A stretch of 64,000 bases of DNA from Prevotella sp. GTDB taxonomy: Bacteria; Bacteroidota; Bacteroidia; Bacteroidales; Bacteroidaceae. The notes below the pieces were generated by a model, which searched no databases, was not told the origin of the DNA, and was given only the letters and a program-made list of their open reading frames with translations. How positions within the stretch are numbered: the stretch's first letter is position 1; the number at the start of each line of letters is the position of its first letter. A program made the position numbers and the translations under genes. This document shows, one piece after another, positions 3,075 through 54,618 of this stretch. Location: the NCBI GenBank assembly GCA_016291085.1, contig JAEEVW010000010.1, positions 40,053-104,052 on the forward strand, in the 5' to 3' direction.

Positions 3075-3184
3075 GACAGAGAAGCCTTCTCGCAACCGTT
3101 TGCGTTAGCCCAAACAACCGTGCGCGTTAGCCCAAACAACCGTGCGCGTTAGCCCAAACGACCGTTCGCGTATACGCAAAAGCT
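3075..3184. repeat. intergenic 22-bp-period array (about 5 units)
   Basis: Units at 3075, 3097, 3119, 3141, 3163; e.g. CGTGCGCGTTAGCCCAAACAAC; first unit contains GAGAAGCCTTCTC. Confidence 0.85.
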
Positions 3185-9746: not shown

Positions 9747-12434
9747 ATGAAGAAGAGAATCATAGTTTTATACATTGGACTCACGATAACCTTTTTGGCT
9801 ATGGCACAACGGGTTAGCGTGGTAACATCCAAAGGAGCGTCAGCACGTGAGCAGTATGCTGCCGAATACCTCCAGAAGAAACTGACAGACATGGGGTATG
9901 AGGTCACGCCAAAGAAAGGATTGCGCATTACGCTGACTAATGCTAGTAATGGTCCTGCTGAGGGATATACCATCACGAAAGATAAGAAGGCCGTGAGTAC
10001 GGGCCTTCAGGGAATCGTGGTATCGGGCAACGATGCGACGGGTGTTATCTATGGTTGCGTGGAACTGGCTGACCGTATTCGTCAAAAAGGGTCGCTGGAT
10101 ATCGAGCCTGTGCAGGAGACACCAGGTATGGTGATGCGCGGCACGTGCATCGGACTGCAGAAGACGGTGTATCTGCCTGGTCATGCTGTGTATGAATACC
10201 CCTATACGCCCGAGAACTTCCCTTGGTTTTACGATAAGGCAGAGTGGCTGAAGTATCTCGACATGATGGTTGAGAACAAATACAATTCGCTGTACCTTTG
10301 GAACGGACATCCCTTTGCCTCGCTGGTGAAACTGAAGGACTATCCCTTCGCCTTGGAGGTAGACGAGGAGACCTTTAAGAAGAACGAGGAAATCTTCTCA
10401 TTCCTGACCCACGAGGCTGACAAACGTGGCATTTGGGTCATTCAGATGTTCTATAACATCATCCTGAGTAAGCCCTTTGCCGACCACTATGGCCTGAAGA
10501 CACAGGATCGTCATCGCCCCATCACACCACTGATTTCTGACTATACCCGCAAGTCCATTGCCGCCTTTATCGAAAAATATCCCAATGTGGGACTGTTAGT
10601 CTGCTTGGGCGAAGCAATGGCAACGATAGATGATGACGTAACGTGGATGAAGGAGACCATTATCCCAGGCATTAAGGACGGACTGACAGCCAGTGGACGA
10701 GCCACTGTGCCCGACGGTTCTCCGTCGGGGCTCCCCCCCATCGTGCTCCGTTCCCACGACACAGACGGCCCATTGGTGCTGAAGGAGTCGCTCCCCCTCT
10801 ATCCCAACATTTATACAATGTCGAAATATACGGGGGAGTCGTTGACCACCTACGAGCCAGGAGGTCCTTGGGGCGAGACGCATCGTCAGCTGGCAGATGC
10901 TGCTCCAGTGCATATCGATAACGTACATATCTTGGCGAACTTGGAACCTTGGCGTTGGTCGTCGCCCGCTTTTATCGAGAAAACCGTTCAGGCTATGCAT
11001 CGTGTACATCACTCGAAGGGTTTGCACCTCTATCCGCAGGCTTCCTATTGGGACTGGCCTTATACGGCAGACAAGTTACCCAATGGCGAACGTCTGAAAC
11101 AGTTGGATCGCGACTGGATGTGGTATCAAGCTTGGGGACGCTATGCGTGGAATGACCAGCGTGGCGAAGACAGTGAATACTGGCTTAAGATTCTTATGGA
11201 CTATTATGGTATTAAAGACAGATACACAGGTCAACTAGTGTTGGAGGCCTATAATGAAAGTGGCGAGATTGCTCCCAAATTGCTGCGTCGCTTCGGCATT
11301 ACGGAGGGTAACCGCCAGACGCTTCTTCTTGGTATGACAATGGGACAACTTGTCAACCCCTACAAATACACCATCTATCCTGGTTTCTATGAGAGCTGTG
11401 GACCACAGGGCGAGAAACTCATAGAATACGTGGAAAAAGAATATAAAGGCGAGAAACATCAAGGTGAGCTGCCTTTAGACATTGTTGACCAATGTGTGGA
11501 ACACGGAAATAATGCAGCACGTAACGTTATCTTTGCCGTACAGAACGTTGAAAAGCATCAAGAGGAATTCCTACGCTTTGCCAACGACATGTTCTGTTAT
11601 TGGAAATTTGCAGAATCATTCCGTGCAAAGGTGCTTGCTGCCCAGCAGGTTTTGAACTACAAATGGACAAAAGACCTTAAGTATTTAGACAATGCCGTTC
11701 CTTTGTTGGAACAAAGTGTGGCTCTTTGGCATGAACTTGTTGCTTTTGCAGATAGTAGTTATCTTTATGCTAACTCCATGCAGACGCAGCAGCGCCGCAT
11801 CCCGGTAGGAGGTGATGGAGGCAAGATGAAGACATGGGGCGAACTGGAAAAGGTGTATCAGGAGGAACTCGATGCCTTTAAGGAGAACATCGAGAAGCTG
11901 AAGCATCCTGTAGCACAGACGAATGTCAAGATACTGCCTGCAAATAATGCAAAGGTCAACTACAAAGGCGCCACCGTTACACTCGAGAAGGGTGCCATCC
12001 TCTTTGAGAATCGTCCAGATACCCCCGTCGATTCCATTGCTCCTGAGTTGGCCGGCCTGCAAGCCCTCGTGCTGAATCGCGACACCACCCGCATTGTGGG
12101 AACGACTCTTGTTTTTGAGAGCGAGAACCCCGTCAAGGTGCTGGTTGGTCTTTTCAAGGATGACGATAAGAAATTTGCCAAGGCTCCCAAACTGGAGATT
12201 GACGCAACGGGCAATGAGTACGGTCAGGCAGAACCCATTCTGACCAATGCCATCAGCATCGTACAGATGCCTAAAGTCAATATTCATCAGTATTCTCTGC
12301 CAGCAGGTCGTAACACCATCCGTCTGCCAAAGGGAATTCTTATGGTGGCAGGTTTTACGGATAGCACCATCACTCCACGCGACTGCGGCTTAAGTGGACC
12401 ATCCAGCGAAGTTGATTGGCTGTTTCAAAAGTAA
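9747..12434 (+). CDS. secreted glycoside hydrolase with alpha-glucuronidase/GH20-type N-terminal domain
   Basis: Signal peptide; zincin-like N-terminal domain then TIM-barrel-like region (EWLKYLDMMVENKYNSLYLWNGHPFASLV). Confidence 0.6.
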   Translation: MKKRIIVLYIGLTITFLAMAQRVSVVTSKGASAREQYAAEYLQKKLTDMGYEVTPKKGLRITLTNASNGPAEGYTITKDKKAVSTGLQGIVVSGNDATGVIYGCVELADRIRQKGSLDIEPVQETPGMVMRGTCIGLQKTVYLPGHAVYEYPYTPENFPWFYDKAEWLKYLDMMVENKYNSLYLWNGHPFASLVKLKDYPFALEVDEETFKKNEEIFSFLTHEADKRGIWVIQMFYNIILSKPFADHYGLKTQDRHRPITPLISDYTRKSIAAFIEKYPNVGLLVCLGEAMATIDDDVTWMKETIIPGIKDGLTASGRATVPDGSPSGLPPIVLRSHDTDGPLVLKESLPLYPNIYTMSKYTGESLTTYEPGGPWGETHRQLADAAPVHIDNVHILANLEPWRWSSPAFIEKTVQAMHRVHHSKGLHLYPQASYWDWPYTADKLPNGERLKQLDRDWMWYQAWGRYAWNDQRGEDSEYWLKILMDYYGIKDRYTGQLVLEAYNESGEIAPKLLRRFGITEGNRQTLLLGMTMGQLVNPYKYTIYPGFYESCGPQGEKLIEYVEKEYKGEKHQGELPLDIVDQCVEHGNNAARNVIFAVQNVEKHQEEFLRFANDMFCYWKFAESFRAKVLAAQQVLNYKWTKDLKYLDNAVPLLEQSVALWHELVAFADSSYLYANSMQTQQRRIPVGGDGGKMKTWGELEKVYQEELDAFKENIEKLKHPVAQTNVKILPANNAKVNYKGATVTLEKGAILFENRPDTPVDSIAPELAGLQALVLNRDTTRIVGTTLVFESENPVKVLVGLFKDDDKKFAKAPKLEIDATGNEYGQAEPILTNAISIVQMPKVNIHQYSLPAGRNTIRLPKGILMVAGFTDSTITPRDCGLSGPSSEVDWLFQK
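10701..10729. repeat. in-frame palindromic element
   Basis: GCCACTGTGCCCGACGGTTCTCCGTCGGG; arms 10710-10717 / 10722-10729, encodes ATVPDGSPSG. Confidence 0.8.
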
Positions 12435-12450
12435 AAAGGTAAAAAAATAG
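12427..12450. repeat. octamer repeat (AAAGGTAA-type), stop codon of upstream gene lies within it
   Basis: AAAAGTAA AAAGGTAA AAAAATAG. Confidence 0.65.
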
Positions 12451-12454
12451 TGCA

Positions 12455-15400
12455 ATGAGAAAGACAGGCAATAAGCAGGCAGACATAAGGGTATGGGGTG
12501 TTTTACTTTTTTACCTTTTTACCTTTTCTCCTTTGCTGGCTGACGATATCAGCCAGCAAGAGATGCAGCGCATCTACCAAGAGGTGCGCACGCCTTATAA
12601 ATATGGTATGGTGGTAGCCCCTACGGACAACTACCACAAGATAGACTGTCCGACAGTGTTCCGTGAAGGCGAAAAATGGCTGATGACCTATGTCGTTTAT
12701 AACGGCAAGGACGGACTCGATGGACGAGGCTATGAGACGTGGCTGGCTGAGAGTGACGACTTGTTGCATTGGACGACGAAGGGACGCCTTCTGTCGTATA
12801 AAGACGATGGTTGGGACATGAATCAGCGAGGTGGTTTTCCTGCCCTCATCGATTGGACTTGGGGCGGGGGCTACGAGCTCGGCGAATACAAAGGCAAGCA
12901 TTGGATGACCTATATCGGTGGGCACGGTACAGGCTACGAAGCTGTGCGCGAACCCCTGAACATCGGAATGGCTTGGACACAGGGCGAAATCACTAAAGCC
13001 CATGAGTGGCAGTCAGGCGAAAAACCGCTGATGAGCATTAATGACAAAGACGTGCAATGGTGGGAGCAATTGGTGCAATACAAGAGTACCATTTATAGCC
13101 TCACCCCCAGCTCCTCTCCGAAGGGCGAGGGGAGTGGTTTGCCCAAAGAACTGGCGAAGTATCGTTTTGTGATGTTCTACAATGCTGGCGGCGTCAATCC
13201 AGATAACAATTTGAAGGCTGAGCGCATTGGTATAGCCCTCAGCAACGACCTGAAGAAATGGAAACGCTATGATGGTAATCCCGTCTTTGCCAATGAGGTA
13301 GGTGGCATCATCACGGGTGATGCCCAGATAGCCAAGATGGGCGACCTGTATGTGATGTTTTATTTCAAGGCCTACGACCCGTCGCGCAAGTATAATGCCT
13401 TCAATACCTTTGCTGTGAGTCGCGACCTCATTCATTGGCAGCGATGGGAGGGTGAAGACCTCATCTGGCCCACGAAACCCTACGACGAGATGTTTGCCCA
13501 TAAGAGCTATGTAGTGAAGCACGATGGGGTGGTGTACCATTTTTATTGTGCAGTGAACAACGATCAACAGCGTGGCATCGCCGTTGCTACGAGTGTACCC
13601 ATGGGGCGCTCTGAGGTGCGTTTTCCAGAACCTGAACGCAAAGGTCGTCGCACGATCACTAACCTCAACGAAGGATGGATGGCAAGCATTGTGCCCGACG
13701 GAGAACCGTCGGGAACGGTGGCAGAACCATCGGGCGTCACCATCCCCCACAACTTCGATGACTACTACGGCTACCGCCAGCTACGGCATGGAAACCTGCA
13801 CGGTAGTGCCGTTTATCAGAAAACATTCGTCGCTCAACCACAAGAGGATAAGCGCTACTTCCTGCAGTTCGAGGGCGTGGGCACGTATGCTACCATCACC
13901 CTTAATGATACGCAATATTCTAAGGAACTGATTGGTCGCACCGTCTTTACCCTTGACGTTACAGAGGCTTTGAATACGGGCAAGAACACATTACACGTTC
14001 TTGTCGATCATCCTGCCATGCAGACGGAGTCACCTTGGGTATGTGGAGGTTGCTCATCAGAATGGGGTTTCTCTGAAGGTAGTCAGCCCTTTGGCATCTT
14101 CCGTCCTGTAACGCTCATCGAAACGGATGCTGTGCGCATTGAACCCTTTGGTGTGCATATTTGGAATAACGCTACCTGTGACTCAGTATTTATCGACACA
14201 GAGGTCAAGAATTACACCCAACAGCCTCAGACCTTTGAACTGGTCAATAAGTTTGCCCTCGCCTCTGGCAAAACTGTGTTCCGCCTATCACAAGAAATGA
14301 GACTGGAACCAGGAGAAATGCGAGTCATCCACCAGTCTTCTGCCATATCCAATGTACACCGCTGGTGTCTTGACGATCCTTATCTTTACACGCTCACATC
14401 AATGCTAAAGCGACCAGACCATTACGATGGTGATAGCAACCAACAGCGTGAGCCTGCCTACGTTACTTTCGATGAGGTGCGGACACCCTTCGGTATTCGT
14501 AACATCTCATGGCCTGTTAAGCGCAACGACGGAGATCATCGTTTCTTCCTCAACGGACAGCCAGTCTTTATCAATGGCACTTGCGAGTATGAACACCTTT
14601 TGGGTAATAGCCACGCCTTTACCCCAGAGCAGATCCGCTCGCGCATCAAGCAGATTACCAATGCGGGCTTTAACGCCTTCCGAGAGGCCCATCAGCCCCA
14701 TAACCTGCTCTATCAGCAGTTGCTCGACGAACAAGGCATCCTCTTCTGGAGCCAGTTCTCAGCACATATCTGGTACGATACTCCACAATTCCGTGAGAAC
14801 TTCAAACGGCTGCTAGTGCGATGGATTAAGGAGCGTCGCAATTCGCCCTCTGTTATCCTTTGGGGATTGCAGAACGAGAGTATCCTGCCCAAGGACTTTG
14901 CAGAAGAGTGCAGCGATATTATCCGCTCGCTTGACCCCACCTGTCGTGATCAGCGCCTCATTACTACGTGTAATGGTGGTGAGGGTACCGATTGGAACGT
15001 CATCCAGAACTGGAGTGGCACATACGGAGGCTCTGCTGAGAACTACGACAATGAGCTGAAGCGCCCTGAGCAATTGCTGAATGGCGAATATGGTGCTTGG
15101 CGCACCATCGACCTGCATGGTGATGCGAAATATAGCGAGGAAAGTTTTACCAAGCTATTGGAAACCAAGGTGCGGTTGGCAGAGAAAGCGTTTGATGTCA
15201 GCGGGGAAACCGCTGACAGCAAGGGCGTCTGCGGCCACTTCCAGTGGCTCTTCACCTCACACGACAATCCAGGCCGTGTGCAACCCGATGGCGCCCTACG
15301 TCGTATCGACAAGATTGGACCGATCAACTATAAAGGGCTGACGACGATTTGGGAGGAGCCTACGCCTGCGTATTATATGTATAGGCAGCGGTATGCGGGA

Positions 15401-16519
15401 AGACCCGACGGAAAACCGTCGGGCACAGTGGGCACCGCTGCAGGGTTTAATTCCAATGCTGCAGACAATCCCACCGCTGCTGACAGGAATCGCGACCTCG
15501 TGAAGGGTGCTGATGGGTATCAGTATCTATACCGCATCAATTGTGGTGGTGATGCTTTTGTCGATGAGTTCGGACAGCAATGGCTGGCGGACGACACCCT
15601 CTATAGCCACTCGTGGGGTCAGGACTATGGCATGCATCCCTATCAGGCTTCGCAACGCCACATCGCAGAAGACATTCGTGGAACCAAGAGCGACGAATTG
15701 TTCCAATATTTCCGCTTTGGACGCCATCGTTTGTGGTACGACTTAGATGTCAGTGGAGGATTGCGTGCCACACTCCTACCTTCAGGTGGGAGAACTACTG
15801 ACAGCGAGTATCGCATTGAACTTTACTTCGCGGAGCCTTGGCACGGAAAGGGTGGTGGCGAGCGTGATGACTATGAGGGCATGCGCATCTTTGATGTAGC
15901 TGTGAATGGTGAGACTGTTGTCGATGATCTCGACCCATGGGCTGAGGCTGGCTATTGTGGGGCCATGAAACGTGTGGTTACTGCTAAGGCTAAAGACGGA
16001 AAACTTCGTATCTCCTTCCCAGAAGTGAAGGCTGGGCAGGCTGTCATTTGTGGTATTGCGATAGCAACTGTATCGCCTGTTGCGACTCAGTCGCAACAAA
16101 CGGTAAATGCAATTCCGACCTCTTGGCGAGCCTTCGATACAGACACCATCGCAAAGTTGCCAAAGGAGTTGCTGCCAAAAGATACAGAAGCCCGTCCGGC
16201 TTCCGTCTATGAGCCTGCAGCTAATAGCCAAAAGACAAAAGCAGGTAGCGGAACCTCCTTTGTCATCAAGCCTGGTTTGGGTCAGGAGTATGCCCTGCGT
16301 TTCCGTTATAAGAACACGACAGGCAACCCTGTGAAGGCCCGCATGACCATTACGGATTCGAAGCGTACCACGCTGGTGGATCGTGACATCACGTTCCCTC
16401 CCACGCCCAATAAGTTCAAAATGCTCTCGACGACCACTGGTACCCAGATTAATGCGGGTACTTATACTGTCTGCATTGACACCAAGGATGTAGAATTTAA
16501 AGAACTCGAAATCCAATAG
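12455..16519 (+). CDS. multidomain secreted glycoside hydrolase: GH43/GH32-like beta-propeller + GH2 + malectin-like domain
   Basis: 1354 aa; propeller motifs; GH2 core RWIKERRNSPSVILWGLQNES; C-terminal malectin-like ELYFAEPWHG. Confidence 0.75.
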   Translation: MRKTGNKQADIRVWGVLLFYLFTFSPLLADDISQQEMQRIYQEVRTPYKYGMVVAPTDNYHKIDCPTVFREGEKWLMTYVVYNGKDGLDGRGYETWLAESDDLLHWTTKGRLLSYKDDGWDMNQRGGFPALIDWTWGGGYELGEYKGKHWMTYIGGHGTGYEAVREPLNIGMAWTQGEITKAHEWQSGEKPLMSINDKDVQWWEQLVQYKSTIYSLTPSSSPKGEGSGLPKELAKYRFVMFYNAGGVNPDNNLKAERIGIALSNDLKKWKRYDGNPVFANEVGGIITGDAQIAKMGDLYVMFYFKAYDPSRKYNAFNTFAVSRDLIHWQRWEGEDLIWPTKPYDEMFAHKSYVVKHDGVVYHFYCAVNNDQQRGIAVATSVPMGRSEVRFPEPERKGRRTITNLNEGWMASIVPDGEPSGTVAEPSGVTIPHNFDDYYGYRQLRHGNLHGSAVYQKTFVAQPQEDKRYFLQFEGVGTYATITLNDTQYSKELIGRTVFTLDVTEALNTGKNTLHVLVDHPAMQTESPWVCGGCSSEWGFSEGSQPFGIFRPVTLIETDAVRIEPFGVHIWNNATCDSVFIDTEVKNYTQQPQTFELVNKFALASGKTVFRLSQEMRLEPGEMRVIHQSSAISNVHRWCLDDPYLYTLTSMLKRPDHYDGDSNQQREPAYVTFDEVRTPFGIRNISWPVKRNDGDHRFFLNGQPVFINGTCEYEHLLGNSHAFTPEQIRSRIKQITNAGFNAFREAHQPHNLLYQQLLDEQGILFWSQFSAHIWYDTPQFRENFKRLLVRWIKERRNSPSVILWGLQNESILPKDFAEECSDIIRSLDPTCRDQRLITTCNGGEGTDWNVIQNWSGTYGGSAENYDNELKRPEQLLNGEYGAWRTIDLHGDAKYSEESFTKLLETKVRLAEKAFDVSGETADSKGVCGHFQWLFTSHDNPGRVQPDGALRRIDKIGPINYKGLTTIWEEPTPAYYMYRQRYAGRPDGKPSGTVGTAAGFNSNAADNPTAADRNRDLVKGADGYQYLYRINCGGDAFVDEFGQQWLADDTLYSHSWGQDYGMHPYQASQRHIAEDIRGTKSDELFQYFRFGRHRLWYDLDVSGGLRATLLPSGGRTTDSEYRIELYFAEPWHGKGGGERDDYEGMRIFDVAVNGETVVDDLDPWAEAGYCGAMKRVVTAKAKDGKLRISFPEVKAGQAVICGIAIATVSPVATQSQQTVNAIPTSWRAFDTDTIAKLPKELLPKDTEARPASVYEPAANSQKTKAGSGTSFVIKPGLGQEYALRFRYKNTTGNPVKARMTITDSKRTTLVDRDITFPPTPNKFKMLSTTTGTQINAGTYTVCIDTKDVEFKELEIQ
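12501..12531. repeat. octamer TTTTACCT tandem encoding the signal-peptide core
   Basis: TTTTACTT TTTTACCT TTTTACCT TTTCTCC encodes LFYLFTFSP. Confidence 0.75.
13101..13137. repeat. in-frame C/G-rich palindromic element (half copy)
   Basis: TCACCCCCAGCTCCTCTCCGAAGGGCGAGGGGAGTGG encodes LTPSSSPKGEGSG. Confidence 0.75.
13691..13736. repeat. in-frame palindromic element
   Basis: CCCGACGG AGAA CCGTCGGG (13694-13713), followed by GAACGGTGGCAGAACCATCGGGC; encodes VPDGEPSGTVAEPSG. Confidence 0.8.
15196..15218. repeat. in-frame hairpin
   Basis: TGTCAGCGG GGAAA CCGCTGACA. Confidence 0.6.
15404..15432. repeat. in-frame palindromic element, reverse orientation
   Basis: CCCGACGG AAAA CCGTCGGG CACAGTGGG; encodes RPDGKPSGTVG. 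Confidence 0.8.
16079..16097. repeat. in-frame perfect palindrome
   Basis: GTTGCGACT C AGTCGCAAC. Confidence 0.65.
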
Positions 16520-35836: not shown

Positions 35837-38734
35837 ATGAATACTTGGAAAGCGAATCTCGAAGAGACGAAGAAACACTATATCGACTGGTGGAACCACA
35901 AGGGCATTGTGCTCAACATGTGGGAACACTTTCAGGAAGGCGTCACACCCCATGCTGACATTCCTGCCCCTCAGCCCTATCGCGACTTGAACCAACGTTG
36001 GTTCGACCCAGTGTGGCGTGCGGAGTATTTGGATTGGTATGTGGCGCACTCGTCGATGATGGCTGACATGTTGCCTGTGGCCAATACGCAACTGGGCCCA
36101 GGCTCGTTGGCAGCTATCTTGGGTGGTGTGTTCGAGGGTGGTGAAGATACCATCTGGATTCATCCTGACCCCAATTACAGCGACGATATCAAGTTCGATT
36201 CCAACCATCCTAACTGGCTGTTGCACAAAGAGTTGCTGAAGGCCTGCAAGGCGAAAGCACAGGGTCACTACTATGTCGGTATGCCTGACCTGATGGAAGG
36301 TCTCGACGTGCTGGCAGCTATCAAGGGAACGGACAAGGTGTTGCTCGATACGGTGATGCAACCTGAGGTGCTCGAGCATCAGATGCAACAGATTAACGAC
36401 ATCTATTTCCGTGTGTTCGACGAGCTCTACGACATCATTCGCGAGGGCGACGAGATGGCATTCTGCTATTTCTCCAGTTGGGCGCCTGGCAAGATGTCGA
36501 AGTTGCAGAGCGACATCTCGACGATGATCAGTGTCGACGACTATCGTCGTTTCGTACAGCCCTTTATCCGCGAACAATGTCAGAAGATTGACTATACCCT
36601 CTACCACCTCGATGGAGTGGGGGCTATGCACCATTTGGATGCCCTGTTGGAGATTAAGGAACTGAACGCCATCCAGTGGACGCCAGGTGTGGGAGAGCCA
36701 CAAGGCGGTTCACCCAAGTGGTACGACCTATACCGCAAGATTCTGGCTGGTGGTAAGAGCATCATGGCTTGTTGGGTGACACTCGACGAGTTGCGCCCCC
36801 TGCTCGATAACATTGGAGGCGAGGGTGTCCATATCGAGATGGACTTCCACAATGAACGCGAGGTGGAACAGGCGATGAAGATAGTGGACGACTTCAAAAC
36901 CAATCGTAATATACATCCGTCAGACTTCAAAGACGACGTCGACCTCGAGGTAGAGGAAATCATTCGTCGTGTAGAAAGTGCAGAGTGTGCTTCTGCAGAG
37001 GAAAATACTGATAAAAGTGCGGTAGCAAACTCTACACTCTACACTCTAAACTCTAAACTCAATAAAATCCTCGTTCTCGATGGTGCGATGGGTACGATGA
37101 TTCAGCGCTATCAGTTGCGCGAAGAAGACTTCCGGGGAGCTCGTTTCGCTAACCATCCTAAGGAACTGAAGGGTTGCAACGACGTGCTGTCGCTGACTGC
37201 TCCTTTCGTCATTCGCGACATCCATCGCAAATACCTGGAGGCAGGTGCTGACATCATCGAGACGAACACCTTTAACGCCCAGCGCATCTCGATGGGTGAC
37301 TTCGGCATGCAGGACTACTGTCGCGACATCAACCTTGCCGCAGTCAAGATTGCCCGTCAGTGTGCCGACGAGTTTAGCTCGTCGGATAAGCCCCGCTACG
37401 TAGCAGGTAGCATCGGCCCCACAAGCAGAACAACCTTTGTTACCACCAGTGGCGAGACACTTGATAAGAATGTATTGCGTGAGGCCTACGCCGAACAGAT
37501 TCAGGCCCTCGTTGACGGAGGTATAGACGCCCTGCTCATCGAAACCATCTTTGATGTAGAGAATGCCCGCATTGCCTTTGAGGAAGCCCAGCGCATAGCA
37601 CCTCAGCTGCCTATCATGTTGAGTTTCAGCGTATCTACGCCCGATGGTCATAATATGTTGGGACAGGACATCTGCGAGTTTCTTCAGTCATTGGACAAAG
37701 AAAATATCTTCTCCGTAGGAATCAATTGCGTGAGCGACGTTGCACAGATGGCGCCCCTCGTTTGTCGCTTGGCACAGTTTGGCACACGGGTGAGCCTCTA
37801 TCCCAATGCAGGCATGCCTGATGGTAACGGACACTATAACAAGACTCCAGAGAGTCTGTTGGCTGACGTCTGGCCCTTGTTAGAAGGACATTGCCTGAAC
37901 ATTATTGGTGGCTGTTGTGGAACGACGGATGCACATATCCGCCTATTCGCCAAAGCCATTGAGCCCGTGCCAGGAATTTTTCTGTCGCCATTGAAGACCC
38001 ACCCCCAACCCCTCCCTATGAAGGAGGGGAGTGAATACTCTCCAGTCAAGGAAATAACGGAAAAACTATCTATTCCCATCCCTCATAGGGAGGGGTCAGG
38101 GGAGAGTCTTCTCTTCGAGGCCATCCTGAACGGCAAGAGCGACGAGGCTGCTGCTGCGACTAAGGACGCTATTGCAGAAGGCATTGCTCCACAAGACCTC
38201 ATCAACGGACAGATGATTCGTGCGATGGGTGAGGTGGGTCAGCGTTTTCAGGATGGCAAGGCCTTCGTACCTCAGTTGCTGATGGCTGGTCGTGCGATGA
38301 AGGCCGCCCTCGAACTGTTGAAACCCATGATGGCTGGTGCTGCCTCTACGTCGTTGGGTAAGGTGGTCATCGGTACGGTGAAGGGCGACTTGCACGATAT
38401 TGGTAAGAACCTGGTGGCGTCGATGTTGGAAGGTTGCGGATTTGAGGTTGTCAATATTGGTATCGACGTTTCTGCCGATAAGTTTATTGAGGCCATCAAG
38501 GAGAACCAGCCCGACATTCTTTGCATGAGTGCACTGTTGACCACCACGATGGGTTATATGAAAGAGGTTATCGACGCCCTCGAACAAGCGGGCATTCGCG
38601 ACCAAGTGAAAGTGATGGTAGGTGGAGCGCCTGTGACGCAGGGTTTTGCCGACGAGATTGGTGCCGATGGTTATAGCGACAACGCCAATTCGGCAGTTGC
38701 AGTCGCGAAGCAACTGTTAAAGGTAAAAAGGTAA
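35837..38734 (+). CDS. fusion: UroD-type methyltransferase - MetH-type homocysteine S-methyltransferase - B12-binding corrinoid domain
   Basis: 965 aa; UroD-like aa ~1-390; HcyMT (DGAMGTMIQ, GGCCGTTDAHI) ~410-715; corrinoid domain with DLHDIGKN ~757-965. Confidence 0.88.
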   Translation: MNTWKANLEETKKHYIDWWNHKGIVLNMWEHFQEGVTPHADIPAPQPYRDLNQRWFDPVWRAEYLDWYVAHSSMMADMLPVANTQLGPGSLAAILGGVFEGGEDTIWIHPDPNYSDDIKFDSNHPNWLLHKELLKACKAKAQGHYYVGMPDLMEGLDVLAAIKGTDKVLLDTVMQPEVLEHQMQQINDIYFRVFDELYDIIREGDEMAFCYFSSWAPGKMSKLQSDISTMISVDDYRRFVQPFIREQCQKIDYTLYHLDGVGAMHHLDALLEIKELNAIQWTPGVGEPQGGSPKWYDLYRKILAGGKSIMACWVTLDELRPLLDNIGGEGVHIEMDFHNEREVEQAMKIVDDFKTNRNIHPSDFKDDVDLEVEEIIRRVESAECASAEENTDKSAVANSTLYTLNSKLNKILVLDGAMGTMIQRYQLREEDFRGARFANHPKELKGCNDVLSLTAPFVIRDIHRKYLEAGADIIETNTFNAQRISMGDFGMQDYCRDINLAAVKIARQCADEFSSSDKPRYVAGSIGPTSRTTFVTTSGETLDKNVLREAYAEQIQALVDGGIDALLIETIFDVENARIAFEEAQRIAPQLPIMLSFSVSTPDGHNMLGQDICEFLQSLDKENIFSVGINCVSDVAQMAPLVCRLAQFGTRVSLYPNAGMPDGNGHYNKTPESLLADVWPLLEGHCLNIIGGCCGTTDAHIRLFAKAIEPVPGIFLSPLKTHPQPLPMKEGSEYSPVKEITEKLSIPIPHREGSGESLLFEAILNGKSDEAAAATKDAIAEGIAPQDLINGQMIRAMGEVGQRFQDGKAFVPQLLMAGRAMKAALELLKPMMAGAASTSLGKVVIGTVKGDLHDIGKNLVASMLEGCGFEVVNIGIDVSADKFIEAIKENQPDILCMSALLTTTMGYMKEVIDALEQAGIRDQVKVMVGGAPVTQGFADEIGADGYSDNANSAVAVAKQLLKVKR
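37026..37060. repeat. heptamer tandem repeat encoding interdomain linker 1
   Basis: TCTACAC TCTACAC TCTAAAC TCTAAAC encodes NSTLYTLNSKLN. Confidence 0.85.
37995..38109. repeat. C/G-rich composite inverted repeat encoding interdomain linker 2
   Basis: AGACCCACCCCCAACCCCTCCCTATGAAGGAGGGGAGTG ... CATCCCTCATAGGGAGGGGTCAGGGGAGAGTCTT. Confidence 0.85.
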
Positions 38735-38758
38735 AAAAGTAAAAGGGTAAAAAGGTAT
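38719..38758. repeat. octamer repeat overlapping the 3' end of the fusion gene
   Basis: AAAGGTAA AAAGGTAA AAAAGTAA AAGGGTAA AAAGGTAT; first 32 nt identical to 61501-61532. Confidence 0.9.
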
Positions 38759-43989: not shown

Positions 43990-44182
43990 GTTTGCTCGGA
44001 GCAATCGATGGGTTTGCTCGGAGCAATCGATGGGCCCGCTCGGAGCAACAAGCCGTTTCGCTGGTAGCGAGAGGCCGTTTCTCTCCCAGTGAGAGGCCGT
44101 TTCTCTCCCAGCGAGAAGCCGTGTTGCTATTTTTCCCTGGGCAGGGAATTTTTGCGCGCTGGGCAGGGCGCAAATTTTCGCT
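43990..44182. repeat. intergenic 22-bp-period hairpin array (about 8-9 units)
   Basis: Units GTTTGCTCGGAGCAATCGATGG (43990, 44012), one 21-bp unit (44034), GTTTCTCTCCCAGTGAGAGGCC (44077) etc.; CTGGGCAGGG hairpins at 44137 and 44159 keep the 22-bp spacing. Confidence 0.85.
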
Positions 44183-49038: not shown

Positions 49039-49205
49039 AGTGATAATATTTAGTTTCTGTGTGCAAAGGTACGAATAATCCTGCACTTCCGTATGCACCA
49101 GATGTATCAGAAGCTATTATAAATGTAACATCAGATGGTTTTCTGGGCCTGGATGACGACAAAACGGCTGGTTGTCAGTCTTTTTTATAAACAAAATTAT
49201 CGACG

Positions 49206-50624
49206 ATGATGAAAGTGAATAGTACTGTTTTGAGACGGGTAATGGGTCTTTTACCTTTTTACCTTTTTACCCTTTTACCTTTAAACGCTCAGACTTTTGA
49301 GACTCGCTACGAGCGTCCTGTCAGCGACCTGATGAAGGATGTTGCCAAGCGTTTTGGTGTGAAGTTCAAGTTCGACGGCAATGTCGATACCGTGGGCAAA
49401 CGTCTGCCCTATGCCGACTTCCGTGTGCGCCCCTATAGCATCGAGATGACGCTCGACAACATCTGCAAATACTACGACTGGAACTGGTGGAAACAGAGCG
49501 GCAACCTCTATAAAATCAAGCTCTATGAGTATCCGCGTCGTCATGAGCAAGAGGGAAAAATGATGCTCGACTGGCTCTCGTCACTTTATAATAATAAGGA
49601 GCAATGGGAGGCTCGTCGTGACTCATTGCGTCGTGAAGTCCGCCAACGACTGGAATTGGACAAGTTCCTCGACTCATGTGTGATGGTGAAGGACAAGAAA
49701 GGCAATCTGCAACGGCCCGTCATCCTCTCGAAGATTCGCAAGCACGACGGCTATACCACGCAGAACATCTGTATCGAACTGACGCCAGGCCAGCACCTCT
49801 TTGGTACGATCTATAACCCCTCCCCCGTCCCCTCTCGAGGGAAGGGCGTAAAGAGCTCTAAAGGTAACAATTCCTCTCCCTCGGGGAGGTTAGGAGGGGG
49901 TTATCCCCTCATCGTCTGCCCTGATGGTCATTGGCCCTATCGTTATCGTAAGGACGAGCAGCAGCGACTGGGCACGCTGGCCCGTATGGGTGCCGTGTGT
50001 GTTGATTTCGACCTCTATGGCTGGGGCGAGAGTGAAAAGGAGGTAGGCGAAGCAGCTCATCACACGAGTCGTGCCCACGTCTATCAGGCTGCTTGTGGCT
50101 ATATCCTGCTCGACTGGATGCTGACCCATCGCAAGGACATCGACCCAGAGCGTGTAGGCGTGATGGGTGGCTCAGGTGGTGGTACGCATACCGTATTGTT
50201 GTCGTTGCTCGACGAACGTGTCACAGCCTCTGCTCCTGTGGTGCATCTGGCCTCGCATTTCGATGGAGGCTGTCCCTGCGAGAGTGGCAAACCCGTACAG
50301 TTGAGCGGAGGTGGAACGTGTGAACCAGAGCTTGCTGCAACCTTTGCCCCAAAGCCTTTGCTGGTGGTATCTGATGATGGCGATTGGACGTCCAGCGTTC
50401 CTCGCTTGGAGTATCCCTATCTGCAACGCATCTATGGCTTCTACGATGCAAAGGATAAGGTGCGTAACGTGCACCTGCCAGGTGAGCGTCACGACTTCAA
50501 GGAAAACAAGCGCCAGGCTGTCTACGACTTCTTCATCGACGTCTTTGGTCTCGACCGCTCGATGCTCGACGAAAGCAAAATCACTATCGAACCTGACGAA
50601 GCACTCAAATCACTCTACAAATGA
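49206..50624 (+). CDS. secreted alpha/beta-hydrolase esterase with N-terminal STN-like domain
   Basis: VGVMGGSGGGTHTVLLSLLDERVTASAPV nucleophile elbow; N-terminal SDLMKDVAKRFGVKFKFDG...MTLDNICKYYDWNWWKQSGNLYKI. Confidence 0.7.
   Translation: MMKVNSTVLRRVMGLLPFYLFTLLPLNAQTFETRYERPVSDLMKDVAKRFGVKFKFDGNVDTVGKRLPYADFRVRPYSIEMTLDNICKYYDWNWWKQSGNLYKIKLYEYPRRHEQEGKMMLDWLSSLYNNKEQWEARRDSLRREVRQRLELDKFLDSCVMVKDKKGNLQRPVILSKIRKHDGYTTQNICIELTPGQHLFGTIYNPSPVPSRGKGVKSSKGNNSSPSGRLGGGYPLIVCPDGHWPYRYRKDEQQRLGTLARMGAVCVDFDLYGWGESEKEVGEAAHHTSRAHVYQAACGYILLDWMLTHRKDIDPERVGVMGGSGGGTHTVLLSLLDERVTASAPVVHLASHFDGGCPCESGKPVQLSGGGTCEPELAATFAPKPLLVVSDDGDWTSSVPRLEYPYLQRIYGFYDAKDKVRNVHLPGERHDFKENKRQAVYDFFIDVFGLDRSMLDESKITIEPDEALKSLYK
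49249..49280. repeat. octamer (TTTTACCT)x4 encoding the signal-peptide core
   Basis: TTTTACCT TTTTACCT TTTTACCC TTTTACCT encodes LPFYLFTLLPL. Confidence 0.85.
49815..49904. repeat. in-frame C/G-rich composite palindrome
   Basis: Outer ATAACCCCTCCC / GGAGGGGGTTAT; inner CCTCTCGAGGG and CCTCTCCCTCGGGGAGG. Confidence 0.85.
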
Positions 50625-51208
50625 AACGGCTGTTGGTATTGACATTTCTCATCTCTCATTTCTCATTTCTCATTTGCGAAGCACAAGAGACGCACTACCA
50701 CAAAGGGCTGCGTTCGCAAGCAGAGAATGATAAATACGGAGGTGTGGCCTCAGAACCGCACTTCGACGGAGGAGGCTATTATTGGACTCGTGTGCGCAAT
50801 GTAGACGACGTCGCTATCACCCATGAATCGCCAGCTGACTCTATTGCTCGTCGTAATGACTTTAAACGTTTGTGCCAGTTGGCTTATGATGCCTACGAGG
50901 AGGGAGACGCGGTGAAAACCATCACTTATGGCGATAGTGCCCTACAGAAACGGTATCATACTGCCGACCTCTACTACTTCATGGCCGTATCGTTCGAGAA
51001 GTTAGGCAGTTACGACGAAGCCGACTGGGCCTATCGCTATGCCCTCGGCTCTGGCTATCCTGGAGCCCTGAACATATACCATGATTTCAAGGCTCGGCAA
51101 CTGCAACGTAAAGCAGAAGCCAAGCAGCGTAAGAAGGAAGAAAAACAACGCCAAAAAGAAGAAAAGCGCAAGGCAAAGGAAGAAAAGAAGAGGCTCAAGG
51201 AAAGTTGA
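50621..51208 (+). CDS. secreted hypothetical protein with TPR-like region and Lys/Glu-rich tail
   Basis: Signal peptide LLVLTFLISHFSFLICEAQ; C-terminus KAEAKQRKKEEKQRQKEEKRKAKEEKKRLKES. Confidence 0.65.
   Translation: MKRLLVLTFLISHFSFLICEAQETHYHKGLRSQAENDKYGGVASEPHFDGGGYYWTRVRNVDDVAITHESPADSIARRNDFKRLCQLAYDAYEEGDAVKTITYGDSALQKRYHTADLYYFMAVSFEKLGSYDEADWAYRYALGSGYPGALNIYHDFKARQLQRKAEAKQRKKEEKQRQKEEKRKAKEEKKRLKES
50644..50675. repeat. heptamer (ATTTCTC)x4 encoding the signal-peptide core
   Basis: ATTTCTC ATCTCTC ATTTCTC ATTTCTC ATT. Confidence 0.85.
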
Positions 51209-52342: not shown

Positions 52343-54618
52343 GACGTTTGATATTAATCATAGGAATAGCGTGGGCTACGCTGAACATGAATGCCCAGAG
52401 CATCTATAGTTTTGGCGACCTGCGGGCCAAAGTGCTCCATGTGGGTCAGAAACTGACTGGTCATAACTCCGCTAACGATCAGGCCATTGCAGTCATTGTG
52501 CGAGAGTTGGCTACGAACTATCAAGGTCGTTTGTCGCGCCAACAGTTTCAGGAGCTGAAAGACACCATCGAGAGTATGCGTCAGCAAATCACAGCGGACA
52601 CTTGGAAAACGGTCTTAAACAGTGCCGTTGAAACGTTGCAGGAAAAGACGGATACACTCGACATCGAGCAGCGAATTCTTAACTACTACCGACGAGTACC
52701 ACAGGAACAGATCTACGTCCACACCGACAAGCCTTACTACGTGGCAGGTGATACTGTTTGGTTCCGAGCCCATTTGGTGGATGCTGTTACGCATACGCCC
52801 ATCAGCCGCTCGCGTTTTGTCTATGTGGAACTGCATGACCAGCAGGCTGATACGCTCTTGCAACGCATCATCGTGAAGTGCGATTCGGATGGCGTCTTTG
52901 CCAATGCCATCACTTTGCCTCGTGGAATGAAGGGAGGCTGCTATACCCTTGCAGCCTATACACAATGGATGCGTAACTTTCCTGCCGAAAGGTTCTTCTA
53001 CAAGCAATTGCTGGTTATTGATAGTTCCCAAGGTGGGAACGATTCATTCCCAAAGTGGGAACGATTCATTCCCAAGGTGGGAACAATTCATTCCCAAGGT
53101 GGGAATCCGTCGCTACAAGTAGTCCAACGCAAAGGGCAACTGCTTATCCAATTGAACAAGCCTACTAACGAGCCTCTCTCGTGTGTGCTTTATGGTAGTG
53201 GGAACCTCATAGTCACTGACTATACATCAGGGAAGGTGTTACGTATTGACAGCAAAACACTACGTCCAGGAAACCTCTGCATAGCTATCGTCAACCGCGA
53301 GACGGGATACGTCATTGCTGAAAGCCAGACCACCATCGAGGGAACTCAGCCACAGGTAGCCATTAGTGGTAAAGCTCGTACCCTGAACGAACCGATGGAG
53401 TTGTCGATAGACCTTGCAGAATCTGACGGTACACCGCTCTATGGAAGCTTCTCGCTGTCGGTTGCCGATTACGACGTGGTAATCCCCGATACGATACAAC
53501 CATCTATTGACAAGTCTCTGAACCAACTATCTGCCGACTACCCTTTGGCTGATATACTCAACGGCACATACCCCCGCATCGACTATGGTTTCCAGACCAC
53601 ACAGACCATTACTGGGCAGATTCGTGGTACTATCTTCAAAAAAATCAAGAATCCCAAGCTGATGTTGGTACGGCCAGATACCGGATTCCGTCAGACCTTC
53701 GAACTTGGCGACAGTTGCCGCTTTACCATCAACGGCCTCGACTTCGCCGACGGTACAACCTACGTACTGGAGGGTATGCGACGTACAGGCAGTACCAGCC
53801 TCGTACAACTGGATATCACCACACAGACATTCCCTACCTTACATTCGCCTTTTTCCTCTGCCCCATCATCTCTTTCCGTCCCAGACAACTTCGCAAAGCA
53901 AGCTCAAGAGCAGGTGATGTATGGTAGCATAGACCGCGAGATAGAACTGCCCGAAGTAGTCAAGGAGAAGAAGCGTCAGCACAAGCCCACCAACTTAATG
54001 GGGATGCCACCCTTCCGTGCCTTCTATGATGACGACCCCTTGCTCAACAATTTCTACTCGATGGAGATTCTGCTCAGTACCTTAGGCATTCCCGTCTATC
54101 GCGATGCTAATGGCGAGTTACAAATCAGATACCGCTCAGGCACAGTTACGCGAGCGATGCAAGGTCCAGTCATTTTCATCGACGAGTTTCGTAGCAACGT
54201 GGAGGAATTACTGATGCTTCAGCCCCAGGCCATTGAGTCCATCGAATGGTTCGACCATGTCGGTGCCGCCAACATGACCATCTATGGCTGGGACGTGTCA
54301 ACCTCGGGACTATTGCTTGTCCGGCAGAAACCTGGTCTTCATGGTAGGATATTCCGTCCCTTGTCAATGGCTACGGTGCAGCAACAGGGTTGGAAACCCA
54401 ATGTCGAGTTCTATTCTCCGCAATACACGGACAAGAGTCAGAAGACGCGCCCTGACCATCGAACCACACTCTACTGGAATCCGAAGGTCACGACAGACAT
54501 CAATGGTCATGCTCAGGTCCGCTTCTACGCCTCCGACATCTCCAAACGTTATTTGGTGACGCTGGAAGGTGTCAGCAACGACGGAACTGTCGTACGAAAA
54601 CAAATGGTCATAGAATAA
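52339..54618 (+). CDS. secreted MG2/carboxypeptidase-regulatory-like outer-membrane-associated protein
   Basis: YVHTDKPYYVAGDTVWFRAHLVDAVTHTPISRSRFVYVEL is the MG2-like signature; C-terminal FYSPQYTDKSQKTRPDHRTTLYWNP. Confidence 0.75.
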   Translation: MRRLILIIGIAWATLNMNAQSIYSFGDLRAKVLHVGQKLTGHNSANDQAIAVIVRELATNYQGRLSRQQFQELKDTIESMRQQITADTWKTVLNSAVETLQEKTDTLDIEQRILNYYRRVPQEQIYVHTDKPYYVAGDTVWFRAHLVDAVTHTPISRSRFVYVELHDQQADTLLQRIIVKCDSDGVFANAITLPRGMKGGCYTLAAYTQWMRNFPAERFFYKQLLVIDSSQGGNDSFPKWERFIPKVGTIHSQGGNPSLQVVQRKGQLLIQLNKPTNEPLSCVLYGSGNLIVTDYTSGKVLRIDSKTLRPGNLCIAIVNRETGYVIAESQTTIEGTQPQVAISGKARTLNEPMELSIDLAESDGTPLYGSFSLSVADYDVVIPDTIQPSIDKSLNQLSADYPLADILNGTYPRIDYGFQTTQTITGQIRGTIFKKIKNPKLMLVRPDTGFRQTFELGDSCRFTINGLDFADGTTYVLEGMRRTGSTSLVQLDITTQTFPTLHSPFSSAPSSLSVPDNFAKQAQEQVMYGSIDREIELPEVVKEKKRQHKPTNLMGMPPFRAFYDDDPLLNNFYSMEILLSTLGIPVYRDANGELQIRYRSGTVTRAMQGPVIFIDEFRSNVEELLMLQPQAIESIEWFDHVGAANMTIYGWDVSTSGLLLVRQKPGLHGRIFRPLSMATVQQQGWKPNVEFYSPQYTDKSQKTRPDHRTTLYWNPKVTTDINGHAQVRFYASDISKRYLVTLEGVSNDGTVVRKQMVIE
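53025..53105. repeat. in-frame 22-bp-period hairpin array (3 full units plus a core)
   Basis: TTCCCAAGGTGGGAACGATTCA x3 + TTCCCAAGGTGGGAA; 3 x 22 = 66 nt keeps frame. Confidence 0.93.

Follow-up and report, generated by a model that had tools for sequence, protein, structure and literature searches.

The gene at positions 49206-50624 (plus strand) of the window, the whole 64,000-nucleotide stretch of Prevotella DNA analyzed here, encodes a 472-residue alpha/beta hydrolase. Its mature part matches PDB entry 6goc (phmmer, E=9e-171), an entry presumed to represent the B. thetaiotaomicron pectin methylesterase BT1017. In this alignment, the GGSGGG motif, the Asp of GDW, and the His of RHD/KHD match the positions of the Ser-Asp-His triad given for BT1017 (PMC7939467), with an inferred offset of +6 residues in the 6goc chain numbering relative to that paper. 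By its sequence and triad residues, the protein is predicted to be a member of the BT1017 pectin methylesterase family. An in-frame palindromic insert at 49817-49901, CCCTCCCCCGTCCCC...GGGGAGGTTAGGAGGGGG, adds about 27 residues that are absent from 6goc; short copies related to it occur elsewhere in the genome, and also in L246 and L305. Upstream of the gene, the motif TGACGACAAAACGG...GGTTGTCAGTC at 49160-49180 is partly common to the region 5' of the esterase in the orthologs L032, L033, and L244, and is a possible regulator site.

The N-terminus of the esterase, MMKVNSTVLRRVMGLLPFYLFTLLPLNAQTFE, fits a Bacteroidetes signal peptidase I (SPI) signal peptide, with a charged n-region MMKVNSTVLRRVMG, the h-region LLPFYLFTLLPL, Ala at -1, and Gln at +1 (NA/QTFE). 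The predicted signal peptide, MMKVNSTVLRRVMGLLPFYLFTLLPLNA, occupies 49206-49289 (plus strand), with cleavage predicted before Q29, followed by QTFE; the NA/Q junction fits the Q-rule for SPI in Bacteroidetes, that is, Ala -1/Gln +1 (PMC5837995). Starting 43 nt into the ORF, four octamer units at 49249-49280 (plus strand), reading TTTTACCT TTTTACCT TTTTACCC TTTTACCT, encode the whole hydrophobic core directly before this junction, exactly as the preliminary description had claimed. TRF calls the array at 49249-49282 (period 8, 4.2 copies, 92% matches). Adjoining it is a remnant-like reverse-complement unit, GGGTAATGGG, at 49237-49246 (plus strand), and a similar motif precedes octamer cores in L057, L059, and L269.

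Two further genes of the window have a repeat-encoded h-region. In the ORF 12455-16519, encoding a GH2/malectin protein by family match, it is an octamer array at 12501-12527 (plus strand; repeat and gene calls); in the gene following the esterase (50621-51208), it is a CATTTCT heptamer array at 50643-50675 (plus strand; TRF and gene calls), giving MKRLLVLTFLISHFSFLICEAQ. The earlier claim that two non-homologous secreted enzymes share a repeat-derived h-region holds for the esterase and the GH2/malectin protein, and the third gene adds a case built from a heptamer. The leader of the GH2 gene also carries an inverted partner arm, AAAAGTAAAAAGGTAAAAAA, at 12427-12446 (plus strand; TRF and reverse-complement search), which supplies the TAA of the upstream gene and includes a 16-nt stretch that pairs without mismatch with the array at 12501. 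The esterase has no such gap arm, only the remnant described above. Two more octamer arrays (both plus strand; TRF and gene calls) lie in reverse orientation at stop codons: AAAGGTAA at 38719-38757, at the end of gene 35837-38734, and an array at 61501-61533, at the end of nusA (60243-61502), between this gene and the following one.

The window also contains 22-bp tandem arrays (3093-3171, 20779-20860, 43990-44122, and 53025-53105) of about 2-4 copies, whose unit differs from array to array and some of which include inverted repeats. The sampled part of the genome (464 kb) has 17 arrays of period 22, and they form a distinct repeat family.

Abundance, position, and reading frames of the octamer

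The pattern TTTTACCTTTTTACC has 34 exact matches in the 3.63-Mb host genome versus 0 for the reversed pattern used as a control; grouping by hand yielded 24 arrays. It is present in 67 of the 150 genomes of the genus, with up to 63 matches. In the rest of the phylum sample it is at the control level, with 1-2 matches in 17 of 295 genomes. By these counts, the octamer is a genus-restricted, patchily amplified dispersed repeat. An assembly artefact was rejected as its source, the arrays being found in many species, in the single-contig genome G045, and in the strains tc2-28 and tf2-5. In one locus (L173, G164:C2:200192-200642), octamer clusters recur at a higher-order period of 44 bp (GCCTTCAAAGGGGAAAC plus octamers), forming an array of arrays.

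The host sample consisted of the neighborhood of every octamer match and about 400 kb of other sequence, with genes predicted by a simple home-made codon-usage caller; the statistics are based on sampled stretches and genome-wide pattern matches, and the gene starts are computed. Thirteen of the 24 host arrays lie in sense orientation within the first ~40 codons of a gene and encode LPFYLFTFLPL-type cores (one of them, L091, was recognized from its open frame). Only about one of 24 is expected there, since sense-oriented stretches of the first 40 codons account for about 4% of the DNA (binomial P about 1e-12). The preliminary description would have been refuted by a lack of enrichment of the repeats at ORF 5' ends genome-wide; these counts show an enrichment. 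Almost all the remaining host arrays are reversed and lie in gaps between co-directional genes, where all ten are antisense. Among 14 gap arrays examined, 13 include the stop codon of the upstream gene, and the next start codon follows 3-45 nt further on. The 111 further arrays found in relatives repeat this pattern: 19 were called sense at 5' ends, at most one is internal, and the co-directional gaps hold 44 antisense versus 9 sense arrays. One of the 19 calls (L184, before radA) is a start miscall for an array that really lies in the 5' UTR. A sense array in the 5' UTR of radA, which encodes a cytoplasmic protein, was seen in two species (L086 10153 and L184 2027) and is an exception to the rule of two places.

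The two orientations differ in their coding properties. In sense, (TTTTTACC)n is stop-free and yields (FLPFYLFT)n from all three frames, and the opposite strand, (GGTAAAAA)n, carries a TAA in each of its frames; similarly, (TTTCTCA)n is translated to (FLISHFS)n. One peptide results from all three frames because neither unit length, 7 or 8, is divisible by 3. With respect to the first ATG, sense arrays occur in all three frames (24, 10, and 3 cases). The hydrophilic heptamer AAAGTTC (KVQSSKF) served as a negative control: none of its 16 arrays is a signal peptide, two that were called at 5' ends being read as start miscalls, compared with 13/24 arrays for TTTTTACC and 3/10 for the hydrophobic TTTCTCA. 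In the host loci L217, L225, L230, L234, and L204, arrays of AAAGTTC or TTTCTCA often stop just 5' of TAnnTTTG, for instance AAAGTTCaaagatttattcgTACCTTTGC. We take TAnnTTTG to be the Bacteroidetes -7 promoter box, and these arrays seem to fill the promoter spacer.

Both places in which octamer arrays survive are those predicted from stop codons and hydrophobicity, and the hydrophilic AAAGTTC arrays persist outside signal peptides. These facts, together with the decayed look of the arrays in many orthologs, would be expected if the arrays spread by slippage and copying and persist wherever they are harmless, since nearly any hydrophobic sequence will do as a signal-peptide core and stops are tolerated in gaps. 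The pattern would then reflect a filter rather than recruitment, and we give this explanation a little less than an even chance. By itself, a filter does not predict the orientation bias in the gaps, nor that an old signal peptide is replaced instead of lengthened, nor the inverted partner arm (see below for both).

A unit length that is not a multiple of three also means that one copy more or less shifts the frame, so that the arrays could act as phase-variable contingency loci, slippage of an out-of-frame unit toggling the gene on and off. We rejected this explanation as very improbable: the octamer cores consist of just 2-4 imperfect units, with substitutions, rather than a long near-perfect array; they lie in envelope genes that are presumed to be indispensable, lptE and porV among them; and the near relatives L104 and L105 have the same array at the same length.

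Unrelated recipients and rebuilt signal peptides

By mature sequence, the proteins with the 37 octamer signal peptides represent 30 homology groups. The recipients in the host include LptE, NigD-like, OmpA, FKBP, DUF3108, PorV, peptidase M28, DUF3943, histidine phosphatase, SPOR, and GH2/malectin proteins; assigned to different Pfam families, they are judged to be mutually non-homologous. Some blast matches of the esterase in relatives cover residues ~2-38 only and fall in unrelated proteins with the same repeat. For annotation, homology matches confined to such N-termini should be treated as repeat artefacts.

Pairwise comparison of n-regions revealed one clear copy of a whole cassette in the host, common to PorV and a member of the OmpA family (41 of 46 nt identical). 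This was the only strong case, and a single cassette shared by all recipients was rejected. When copies were compared for the conserved body or ends of a possible mobile element (MITE/REP-like), most pairs shared the arrays only, and PorV/OmpA shared the 46-nt cassette. Since flanks are hardly shared between recipients other than PorV and OmpA, copying of a cassette is not the usual route, and independent formation near a common unit is. In the unbiased 464-kb sample, a repeat core was found in 3 of 145 signal-peptide-like genes, all three in the window; genome-wide, the share of repeat-built signal peptides is perhaps ~1-2%, as estimated from 13-14 octamer and 3 TTTCTCA cases. In a PorV ortholog (L361), a hairpin-type element CCCACCCCC/GGGGGTGGG seems to be a part of the signal peptide LTPLPWGGVGGGFAQ, which suggests that other repeats may be recruited too.

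The esterase itself was followed through 98 orthologs; those in named records come without exception from Prevotella, Prevotellaceae, or Bacteroidales, for the most part from rumen MAGs. Their signal-peptide DNA repeats at lag 7 in 11 genes and at lag 8 in 6, and no repeats were found at lags 4-6 and 9-13. The F/L/Y/P-rich cores are compositionally biased, and convergent codon use could make them look repetitive by chance. The restriction to lags 7 and 8, the zero count of the reversed-pattern control, and the occurrence of the octamer in noncoding gaps leave such a codon-bias artefact a negligible chance, and it was rejected.

The repeat unit differs among the orthologs: TTTTTACC in the window esterase and L269/L287, TCTTACC/TCTCACC in L035/L264/L318, TTTCTCA in L256/L265/L271, L267, and L304, and further units in others. 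On the tree of the mature proteins, the repeat state changed at least 10 times, 9 of the changes being forced by well-supported branches, although parsimony does not tell gain from loss. The differences between the units argue for several gains. Between L269/L287 and L035/L264/L318, the start and n-region are nearly letter-for-letter equal with octamer versus heptamer cores, and the unit was switched in place. In the close sister pairs L267/L274 and L271/L273, the mature proteins are near-identical and the signal peptides are different.

From the esterase and the GH2 gene, the preliminary description had argued for recurrent recruitment of the octamer. This is supported by the enrichment at ORF 5' ends, by the non-homology of the recipients, and by the orthologs, in which one signal peptide was rebuilt several times. 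It has to be amended in that the octamer is not special, heptamers being used as well, the other half of the arrays is antisense in gaps, and an inverted partner precedes the start codon of many genes with a signal-peptide array.

Inverted partners across the start codon

The inverted partner was unexpected and had no place in the earlier reading. Of the 37 octamer signal peptides, 28 have a reverse-complement unit within 150 nt upstream; among signal-peptide genes of other kinds, 22 of 232 do (P about 6e-17). With one gene counted per homology group, the figure for the octamer signal peptides is 22 of 30. In lptE, FKBP, and a NigD-like gene, the pre-ATG gap array and the signal-peptide array are predicted to pair in a 20-30 bp stem whose loop holds the start codon. 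The TTTCTCA arrays have the same layout in L256, L265, and L267, with ATGAGAAATGAGAA before the start, and sisters without the TTTCTCA signal-peptide array also lack the gap array. Over the FKBP, PorV, and esterase orthologs, the arms tend to be gained and lost together: 10 genes have both, 12 the signal-peptide array only, 3 the partner only, and 130 neither (P about 9e-8, the orthologs not being independent). When the unbiased sample was searched for inverted repeats spanning start codons, whatever their unit, it gave too few cases to add to the GH2 gene of the window.

Selection might act on the RNA hairpin into which the inverted arms fold around the start codon, as a means of translational control, with the hydrophobic reading secondary. 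The mean fold z-score is -2.7 for octamer signal peptides versus -0.5 for controls (mononucleotide shuffles), 20-30 bp stems occur in L002, L006, L029, and L179, and the arms co-occur in the FKBP orthologs, 5 of which have both and 25 neither. Nevertheless, we consider this explanation unlikely. No partner was detected for 9 of the 37 octamer signal peptides and for 12 of the 22 repeat signal peptides in the FKBP, PorV, and esterase orthologs, and the window esterase retains a remnant only. The arms drift, as in AAGTAAAA opposite ACCTTTTT, and inspection of the FKBP and PorV orthologs showed no clear compensatory changes between them. Because of this drift, the hairpin is more likely a by-product than a selected feature.

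A possible origin of the repeat-built cores and related systems

We assign a probability of roughly 0.75 to the reading that the dispersed 7-8 bp arrays of rumen Prevotella are repeatedly used as signal-peptide cores of unrelated genes, with normal export of the repeat-encoded peptides presumed. Short tandem arrays, dispersed in these genomes and concentrated at gene boundaries, would grow there. The pyrimidine-rich strand offers the same stop-free hydrophobic peptide in three frames, and the opposite strand a stop in each. A sense array arriving or expanding directly behind a start codon could serve as a ready-made, frame-independent signal-peptide core, since it has no stop and encodes the same hydrophobic peptide in all frames. 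In reverse orientation, arrays are kept in gaps, where they terminate the upstream gene and provide an A/G-rich leader for the next one. The sense array may often be an inverted copy of the gap array, perhaps made by template switching across the start region, and the old cleavage junction of the gene would be retained when the repeat core comes in. Whole cassettes would occasionally be copied between genes, and arrays would later decay. A bolder version, which we offer tentatively and regard as rather doubtful, is that the inverted arrays around the start codon form a two-part cassette folding into a hairpin, one part providing a stop and a ribosome-loading leader and its inverted copy a frame-independent signal peptide, and that this is a general route from non-coding repeats to de novo or replaced secretion signals in Prevotella.

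Signal peptides diverge fast, and the sources of new ones are rarely visible; here the source is legible in the sequence. Unrelated genes obtain their hydrophobic cores from a repeat family confined to the genus, a single gene has had its signal peptide rebuilt several times from different units, and a matching arm is often left in the leader. In rumen Prevotella, simple non-genic repeats thus seem to be drawn on again and again as material for new signal peptides. This bears on the origin of secretion signals and on the role of 7-8 bp repeats in bacterial genomes, and is directly testable in cultured Prevotella.

In comparison with the BT1017 family (PMC7939467; PDB 6goc), the mature window protein is alike in sequence and triad; its alignment to the 6goc chain of 658 residues covers residues 23-434 of that chain, where the window protein ends, and it differs in the repeat-derived insert and the repeat-derived signal peptide. 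It likewise shares Ala -1, Gln +1, and the charged n-region with Sec/SPI Q-rule signal peptides of Bacteroidetes (PMC5837995), but its h-region, unlike the usual ones, is encoded by a dispersed tandem repeat. Long simple sequence repeats have units of 5-11 bp, heptamers being the commonest (as summarized in PMC4679880). In contrast to these and to contingency loci, the Prevotella arrays are short and imperfect and encode a defined functional element in presumably indispensable genes.

We found no report of repeat-derived signal peptides in the open literature, a body that leaves out most subscription papers. The closest published report found there concerns the TAACTGA heptamer direct repeats that occur in Beggiatoaceae, Cyanobacteria, and some Bacteroidetes (MacGregor 2015, PMC4679880). 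The term "signal peptide" is absent from its main text, which does note the stop-codon logic, and neither an inverted partner across starts nor repeated replacement in orthologs was found in the parts considered. As described there, the TAACTGA repeats resemble the octamer in being short tandem units, mostly in 2-6 copies and mostly just 5' of starts, with stops in the three frames of one strand, overlap with the upstream stop codon, and a reverse orientation that is open in ORFs. The units differ in identity and length, the Prevotella unit TTTTTACC having 8 bp versus 7 bp for TAACTGA. The octamer arrays in gaps have the TAACTGA-type layout, lying 5' of starts with stops in all frames, and the array at 49249 represents the other orientation.
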